Origin: Thermanaerothrix sp.
GTDB taxonomy: Bacteria > Synergistota > Synergistia > Synergistales > Synergistaceae
Assembly: GCA_026417795.1 (NCBI GenBank)
Contig: JAOACP010000007.1
Span: forward strand, 1-64,000
Length of the DNA stretch: 64,000 nt
Reading direction: 5' to 3'
Of this stretch, positions 48,732-49,987 are shown piece by piece. Numbering within the stretch: position 1 is the first letter of the stretch; each line of letters begins with the position of its first letter. Under the pieces are notes generated by a model. It worked only from the letters and a program-made list of their open reading frames with translations, was not told where the DNA came from and did not search any database. Both the position numbers and the translations under genes were made by a program.

Positions 48732-49589
48732 CTAACTCTCCCTGACCTGATGCGCAAGGATCCCCTTGTCAATCACGTTCCTCCTGGCGGAATCCGCCAG
48801 TTCTACTGCCCTTGAGGCCGCGGCGGAAACCGCTCTCATGAAGGCGGTCCTTACCCTACCCTCCTCAAGCTCGTAAAGCCCCTCTATGGTAACCCCTCCT
48901 GGTGTTATCACCTGATCCCTCAGCTCCGCCGGATGTCCACCGGACTCAAGCAAAAGTGATGAAGCCCCTATGGCGGTGTTGGCCGCGGCGCGCAACGCCA
49001 GATCCCTGGGCAGCCCTGCCTTGAGGGCGCCCAATATCATGGCTTCCAAGACGGTGTATATGTAAGCAGGCCCGCTGCCGGACATGGCGGTAAGCACGTC
49101 CAGGTACTGCTCATCCACCCTCTCAAAGGCCCCCATGGACCTGAAGACGCTCCTAACCATGGCCTCCTCCGACTCTCCCACGCCCGATCCGTTAGCGTAA
49201 ACCGTGTACCCCCGCCTTATCCGACAGGCGGTGTTGGTCATGGCCCTCACCACCGGGAAGGGACAAACCGCTTCCATCATCTGGATGGTCATGGCCGCCG
49301 CCAGGGATATCACCACCTTCGGGCCGGATCCCGGCGCTAAGGCAGCTATCTGGGACATAACGTCCAGCACCTGGTAGGGTTTCACCGCCAATATCACCAC
49401 GTCGGCCCACGACGCGGCCTCTTGGTTAGACCCTCCCTCCTCCACTCCGGCCTCCAAAAGCTCCGTAGGTATCACGCCCCTCTTCCGGGTGGCCATCACC
49501 TCAAAATGGGGCCTAAGTGCCATGGCCGCCGCGCTTCCTATGGTTCCCGCCCCTATTATGGCCACCTTCCTCACAACTACCCTGTCCAT
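48732..49589 (-). CDS. proC: Pyrroline-5-carboxylate reductase
   Basis: 285 residues. VAIIGAGTIGSAAAMAL is the dinucleotide site, AVKPYQV and VRAMTNTA follow, and the C-terminal half has AMSGSGPAYIYTVLEAM and the DQVITPGGVTIEGL signature. It reduces pyrroline-5-carboxylate to proline with NAD(P)H. ATG at 49589 after GGAGGTG. A separate promoter about 250 bp upstream and a terminator-like hairpin just before the ribosome site suggest regulated expression. Confidence 0.94.
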   Translation of the reverse strand: MDRVVVRKVAIIGAGTIGSAAAMALRPHFEVMATRKRGVIPTELLEAGVEEGGSNQEAASWADVVILAVKPYQVLDVMSQIAALAPGSGPKVVISLAAAMTIQMMEAVCPFPVVRAMTNTACRIRRGYTVYANGSGVGESEEAMVRSVFRSMGAFERVDEQYLDVLTAMSGSGPAYIYTVLEAMILGALKAGLPRDLALRAAANTAIGASSLLLESGGHPAELRDQVITPGGVTIEGLYELEEGRVRTAFMRAVSAAASRAVELADSARRNVIDKGILAHQVRES

Positions 49590-49604: not shown

Positions 49605-49812
49605 TGAAAATAAAACGGGGCCGCCCCCGAAGGGACGGCCCCGCACCCAAATCATCCAAAGGGCCTTACGATCTCAGCTGCTTCATACCTCAAGGCCAAG
49701 GACGGGCAAAGGGCATCCTCCCGGGGAACCCCAAGGGCTCCCCGGGCTAGGGATCGCTTGAAACGCAGACCAGGAGCACAACGTCAAGTTCCCTACCCCC
49801 TCCCGCAACATG
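49605..49812 (-). ncRNA. Candidate structured RNA ahead of proC
   Basis: About 205 nt on the minus strand with no credible gene, between a TTGACA/TACAAT promoter and an intrinsic terminator. It has at least two strong stems: CCCGGGGA paired with TCCCCGGG (49721-49744 region) and GGCCTT paired with AAGGCC (49662-49697). The terminator (CGGGGCCG/CGGCCCCG, then TTTTATTTT, 49606-49643) ends 15 bases before the proC ribosome site. It could be an independent small RNA or a regulatory leader of proC. I could not match it to a known riboswitch, T-box, 6S or SRP RNA by eye. Confidence 0.4.
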
Positions 49813-49818
49813 CGGGAG

Positions 49819-49847
49819 ATTGTAAAACAAGCTGGACCACCTGTCAA
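49819..49847 (-). promoter_or_regulatory. Strong sigma70 promoter, minus strand
   Basis: On the minus strand TTGACA (49847-49842), a 17-base spacer and TACAAT (49824-49819). Expected start near 49812. The only downstream gene in this direction is proC, 220 bp away. Confidence 0.75.
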
Positions 49848-49923
49848 ACCGCTCCCGATTTAATCACCTGTCACTCCATCAGTCATCATCATTGAGGATT
49901 AAGATTTTCATTTCCCGGCTTTA

Positions 49924-49952
49924 TTGACATATCCTGAGATGAGAATCAAAAT
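49924..49952 (+). promoter_or_regulatory. Candidate promoter of cysK
   Basis: TTGACA at 49924-49929, 17-base spacer, CAAAAT at 49947-49952, about 36 bases before the TTG start. Confidence 0.5.
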
Positions 49953-49987
49953 CCTTAGCGTCAATTACTTCGAGGGAGGAATAAATT

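Follow-up and report, generated by a model that had tools for sequence, protein, structure and literature searches.

The window, a stretch of 64,000 nucleotides of Thermanaerothrix sp. DNA, carries on its minus strand a proC gene for pyrroline-5-carboxylate reductase, identified by NCBIfam TIGR00112 (231 bits against a cut-off of 197) and by Pfam P5CR_dimer. The gene is preceded by a leader of about 205 nt, and a divergent cysteine synthase-like gene lies upstream of the leader. The features of the region, in the order of transcription, are:

49842–49847, minus strand: −35 box TTGACA; the same box is conserved in the same-genus genome G002
49819–49824, minus strand: −10 box TACAAT, separated from the −35 box by a 17-base spacer
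49796–49804, minus strand: strong Shine-Dalgarno-like sequence GGGAGGGGG of the leader, read from the sequence
49683–49787, minus strand: leader-peptide ORF MTLCSWSAFQAIPSPGSPWGSPGGCPLPVLGLEV, TTG start, TGA stop at 49685–49683
49704–49751, minus strand: six Pro codons, the putative control codons (CCT 49751, CCG 49745, CCT 49736, CCG 49724, CCT 49712, CCC 49706)
49633–49718, minus strand: predicted antiterminator, in which 49718–49700 pairs with 49657–49633, overlapping the 5′ arm of the terminator
49662–49697, minus strand: intervening hairpin GGCCUUG...UAAGGCC, found by folding, inside the antiterminator and spanning the leader stop codon
49607–49644, minus strand: intrinsic terminator, a 13-pair stem with a UUCG loop (49644–49615) followed by the tract TTTTATTTT (49615–49607)
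48732–49589, minus strand: proC, assigned by profile matches, the controlled gene in the reading proposed below

The promoter pointed out in the earlier note (a perfect TTGACA, a 17-base spacer and TACAAT) was recovered at 49847–49819 with 11 of 12 consensus matches. Two promoter-like sites were found in the region as compared with 0.2 expected in shuffled sequences, and transcription would start near 49812. The −10 box and the Shine-Dalgarno sequence of the leader flank a perfect 8-bp inverted repeat at 49800–49818 (CTCCCGCA/TGCGGGAG), which is largely kept in G002, with a paired change, and is replaced by a different dyad at the same place in G001. A large imperfect dyad at 49891–49965 (arms 49895–49914 and 49936–49955, 80% complementary) surrounds the promoter-like site of the cysteine synthase-like gene, TTGACA-17-CAAAAT; since it is almost unchanged in G002, it is likely an operator.

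The strong stems and the terminator with its T-tract noticed on first reading were likewise confirmed. All of 200 dinucleotide shuffles were less stable than the leader, whose predicted fold has an energy of −101.8 kcal/mol (z −3.35). The terminator at 49644–49607 directly precedes the ribosome site of proC (GGGAGG, 49603), and the ATG follows at 49589.

The same interval had been described as holding no credible gene, which did not stand. It contains a 34-codon ORF, MTLCSWSAFQAIPSPGSPWGSPGGCPLPVLGLEV, with six Pro codons and a Shine-Dalgarno sequence, conserved in relatives; this ORF (49787–49683) is part of a 54-amino acid ORF at 49683–49847 in the ORF listing. Its start codon is TTG, which counts against the attenuator reading proposed below, and an in-frame ATG at 49811 offers an alternative, nearly leaderless, start. 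The earlier note had named a coding gene in the interval as evidence against its proposal; such a gene is indeed there, but as the probable sensor of an attenuator.

Search for Known RNA Classes

No Rfam family matched the leader at the gathering score and nothing credible appeared at relaxed thresholds, in agreement with the earlier failure to recognize a T-box, TPP, glycine, SAM, 6S or SRP RNA. The T-box model (RF00230) gave no match at the proC locus, the three T-box matches of the genome being on other contigs; T-boxes occur in the same genomes, not at proC. The 6S RNA model (RF00013) gave no match at the locus either, and the 6S-like RNA of this genome was found on contig C35. The Rfam Trp, His, Leu, Thr and Phe leader covariance models were also without a match at the gathering score.

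A leader with a terminator ahead of a biosynthetic gene, together with a high structure z-score, would suit a riboswitch or a protein-controlled leader, the RNA binding a ligand such as proline directly. We consider this very improbable in view of the missing Rfam match and of the alignment of 12 related leaders (see below) with MAFFT/RNAalifold, in which the consensus fold comprised the terminator only and no conserved aptamer core.

Leaders of proC in Synergistota

A ProC alignment was searched against 188 Synergistota genomes, together with named loci of another collection, and the regions upstream of the proC genes were compared. The layout of promoter, Pro-rich leader, terminator and proC was found in 12 Synergistota genomes. 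The sigma-70-like promoter precedes the leader ORF in all 12, usually as TTGAC[A/G] with a 17-base spacer, and an intrinsic terminator stands between leader ORF and proC in every case, with compensatory changes in eight of 12 terminator pairs. The leaders have 28–35 codons and three to eight Pro codons each, amounting to 60 Pro codons in about 370. Besides that of the window (genome G000), the leader ORFs are:

G002: MKAAFDWSGFQMIPSPGSPWGSPEGCPLPVLGLRI
G001: MLSRIGMASFVNPLPSPGVLCPPDRFPFAPSAQP
G006: MAQHLRRLPSPCLPRPQAIFARGWSVLS
G059: MSLKRRFDMALPCYPCPASRFPGVSRPCPGA
G067: MILNRRFDMALPCSPRPVSKHPGGGRPCPGA
G050: MAGCFRTVHTINPCVPPVVGHRSARSGPPVS
G045: MARTFIINTNPSPCPSVVPGRCVFREGLVLS
G054: MAYVTRNTNPCPCPTVMPGRCIFRGGLVLS
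G181: MQVSVRRTTRPNPCIPPRSRKSLSREGTVLS
G184: MRNTFIRISRSNPCVPPCTGKNCRRKGLVVS
G187: MIDILKRTARPNPCVPPRTRRNISREGLVMS

The geometry is also maintained: the first Pro codon lies 57–66 nt ahead of the leader stop, the terminator begins 22–42 nt past it, and, in the genomes with a clear proC start, the stop lies about 86–103 nt before proC. A covariance model of the leader ends retrieved a thirteenth leader, in G185, on a short contig. The leaders of G000 and G002 are 82% identical, with the Pro block unchanged, and the sole indel inside the leader ORF is one of 3 nt, in frame. Beyond the genus, apparent nucleotide homology was limited to short matches attributed to chance, several of which fall within unrelated coding genes. 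In the other Synergistota families the scan upstream of proC genes revealed no such arrangement; scattered ORFs with at least four Pro codons occur before proC there, and the geometry is missing.

The Pro enrichment was assessed by shuffling the dinucleotides of each leader while keeping the position window and the Shine-Dalgarno requirement. The observed Pro count was reached in 0–4.5% of shuffles per genome, and Fisher's combination over nine genomes, one per lineage, gave p 1.3e-8, a value that is only indicative because the nine lineages share ancestry. GC-rich DNA often yields Pro codons, and an ORF with at least three of them appeared in 2–13% of shuffles, so that the terminator might be suspected of being an ordinary one that ends some unrelated short transcript, the Pro-rich ORF being there by chance. 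This explanation has next to no probability in our view, as nine lineages repeat the arrangement (p ~1e-8) with a fixed geometry and a coding-like indel.

The same comparison bears on the first half of the earlier either/or, an independent small RNA, about 200 nt long, that would act in trans and end before proC by happenstance. The element has its own promoter, a strong fold and a terminator, and an RNA of this kind would also be released whenever an attenuator terminates. Against this, all 12 genomes have the element ahead of proC even though its nucleotide sequence is poorly conserved outside the genus; what is kept is the Pro content of the ORF and the geometry, not the RNA sequence. A free RNA is accordingly improbable, while control of proC by termination in a leader, the second half of that alternative, is strongly supported.

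At least one Cys codon stands beside the Pro codons in every proC leader (NPC, CPC, GCP and similar; 49712–49751 in the window). Cys codons are also present in many of the Tyr-rich leaders described below, and neither RNA pairing nor proline sensing obviously accounts for them.

Predicted Antiterminator and Structural Switch

When transcripts ending in the terminator loop were folded, the end of the leader ORF paired with the 5′ arm of the terminator in nearly all leaders. In G000 a conserved short core, UGGCC (49698–49694), can pair with GGCCG (49640–49636). In general form, YGGYY near the stop and RGCCG in the terminator, this core, placed by hand, pairs in 74 of 75 cells over 15 leaders, one pair being broken in G054. 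Two tests of the antiterminator arm were not significant, namely a duplex shuffle test (Stouffer z −1.1) and a comparison of own with swapped arms (p 0.12); GC-rich arms readily pair with many partners. In a position scan over nine lineages, complementarity to the 5′ arm of the terminator peaked only at the ORF end, for scan segments starting at −18 to −6 relative to the stop, with a mean z as low as −1.5.

In a further test, the stretch of RNA accessible beyond a ribosome stalled at the first Pro codon was compared with that accessible beyond a ribosome at the stop, with shuffled leaders carrying the same terminator as control. The gain in sequestered terminator arm on stalling was 0.38–0.44 versus 0.13–0.18 in shuffles (p 0.001–0.004), and the loss of terminator at equilibrium was 0.26–0.39 versus 0.01 (p ≤ 5e-5). 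For G000 the terminator probability fell from 0.98–1.00 with a finished ribosome to 0.07–0.60 with a stalled one, varying with the assumed transcript end; across assumed footprint edges and transcript ends, the value for stalling at the first Pro codon ranged from 0.01 to 0.66. This dependence counts against the attenuator reading, as does the finding that, with the ribosome at the stop and RNA polymerase still in the loop, the terminator arm of G000 was also sequestered (0.80–0.82). For G006, G067, G045, G184 and G187, equilibrium favours the terminator whether the ribosome is stalled or finished, and the switch in these genomes must therefore be kinetic. In the modelled folds the antiterminator would exclude the terminator, and a ribosome finishing the leader would sit over the 5′ part of the antiterminator.

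Proposed Mechanism

The region is very probably a ribosome-mediated, leader-peptide transcription attenuator of proC, of the trp/his type, that senses the supply of prolyl-tRNA. A short upstream ORF rich in codons for the end product, the hallmark of such attenuators, is present as a predicted ORF in 12 genomes. The component parts and their conservation were established by computation, as were the enrichment of Pro codons and the predicted switch in structure; the following course of events, from transcription start through translation and stalling to a response to proline, is proposed. RNA polymerase would start near 49812 and a ribosome would translate the Pro-rich leader. Should charged tRNA-Pro be scarce, the ribosome would stall at the early Pro codons, so that the exposed end of the leader ORF could pair, as antiterminator, with the 5′ arm of the terminator and transcription would continue into proC. 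With plentiful proline the ribosome would reach the stop codon and cover the ORF-end segment, the terminator would form, and the product would be a short RNA of the leader, about 200 nt in length. The sensor would then be the ORF of a Pro-rich leader peptide and not a riboswitch-like element, contrary to the initial label of an orphan structured RNA; the guess of a dependence on proline made at that time would fit this reading of the sequence.

The leader might instead act through slow Pro-Pro bond formation, reporting EF-P status, or sense cysteine as well, rather than respond to tRNA-Pro charging alone. Several leaders contain Pro-Pro (CVPP, CIPP, LCPP), and the Cys codons mentioned above lie close to Pro codons in all 12 leaders. 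However, there is no Pro-Pro pair in the leaders of the window and of G002 (IPSPGSPWGSPGGCPLP), nor in those of G045, G054, G006, G059 and G067, and the controlled gene is a proline gene, which makes this variant unlikely and leaves sensing of prolyl-tRNA as the preferred explanation.

Searches for proA and proB gave no match in the 12 genomes, and were positive in 12 and 13 of the 14 genomes used as controls; ProC may for this reason be the committed proline step. Proline is probably made from ornithine or arginine, and ProC would therefore be the natural control point. Members of the ornithine cyclodeaminase family were detected in each of the 12 genomes, and these matches are no proof of a proline route bypassing ProC, since the family is too broad. 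In G067 alone, 15 matches to the ornithine cyclodeaminase/mu-crystallin family were counted.

Related Leaders on Other Genes

The covariance model of leader ends also found related leaders without Pro bias. Some of its further matches are plain terminators after long genes, and the model alone is therefore no detector of attenuators. Tyr-rich leaders (e.g., MPADMFRNVSYYYAYSYPRCDHAPGLLVFSAKSESA) with a terminator precede a sodium:solute symporter gene at the Synergistota loci L166, L167, L171, L177, L181–L183, L185 and L186, which suggests a Tyr-sensing transporter attenuator. Leaders rich in Tyr, Phe and Trp codons (e.g., MVKSVANLNVWFSFYYYFYFTWPAKLRERLAMLCKR) precede aroE (shikimate dehydrogenase) at L165, L169 and L188 and suggest aromatic amino acid attenuation. 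Leaders with runs of Tyr codons before the gene of a TRAP transporter solute-binding protein (L170 and L197) give a hint of the substrate of that transporter. In the core pairing described above, the proC leaders have C-G where the aroE and TRAP leaders have U-A.

These leaders may share one Synergistota attenuator chassis in which the sensing codons were exchanged in evolution (Pro with proC, Tyr with the symporter and TRAP genes, Tyr/Phe/Trp with aroE), a proposal on which we are almost evenly divided, leaning slightly to doubt. As proposed, and as hinted at by the leaders, the chassis would consist of a similar ORF end (approximately REGLVLS or RERLAML) and a terminator of the GGCCGCC or AGCCGCC type.

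Comparison with Known Systems

The proC leader resembles the trp, his, leu, thr and phe attenuators (Rfam Trp_leader, His_leader, Leu_leader, Thr_leader and Phe_leader) in its short ORF rich in end-product codons and in an antiterminator that overlaps the terminator, followed by a biosynthetic gene. It differs from them in the amino acid and gene (proline and proC), in its unrelated leader sequences without an Rfam match, in control codons that are interspersed and not in a run, and in its occurrence in Synergistota instead of Proteobacteria, Actinobacteria or Firmicutes. In Bacillus, proline genes carry tRNA-Pro T-box leaders that respond to tRNA-Pro charging and act by termination. The T-box binds the tRNA directly, in contrast to the leader proposed here, which has no T-box match.

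Known proline leader peptides are those of the Salmonella mgtCBR and mgtA leaders (PMC3641672). In mgtP, the short Pro-rich ORF of mgtCBR and in this respect similar to the proC leader, the Pro codons were shown by experiment to matter, and stalling under proline limitation raises downstream transcription (PMC3641672). Unlike the proC leader, which would control proline synthesis, mgtP has a virulence protein and a Mg2+ transporter as its targets; it has 17 codons with three consecutive Pro, and no sequence relation was seen (PMC3641672). A 2010 survey noted that leader peptide systems had until then been demonstrated in Proteobacteria and Actinobacteria alone, and added Firmicutes to these (PMC2965389); the available part of a 2022 study that includes Synergistetes histidine genes assigns a repressor to these and attenuators only to Firmicutes (PMC9413887). 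The candidate His leaders of Firmicutes are similar in that a leader peptide and a terminator were predicted by comparative genomics beyond Proteobacteria; they concern histidine genes, and the available text of both papers reports no leader peptide for proline or in Synergistota (PMC2965389, PMC9413887). No leader peptide on a proline biosynthesis gene and no leader-peptide attenuator in Synergistota was found in searches of open-access literature, outside which most subscription journals lie. The proposed mechanism is a known one, and the pairing of proline with proC and the phylum are apparently new.

Conclusions

A coding attenuator ahead of a metabolic gene can look like a structured RNA without a gene, and be missed both by a reader of the raw sequence and by Rfam. 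The proC leader provides a testable rule for how these anaerobes, which ferment amino acids and whose genomes yielded neither proA nor proB, control their proline supply. If the shared chassis is true, leader-peptide attenuation would be a main, so far unrecognized, mode of amino acid control in an amino-acid-fermenting phylum.
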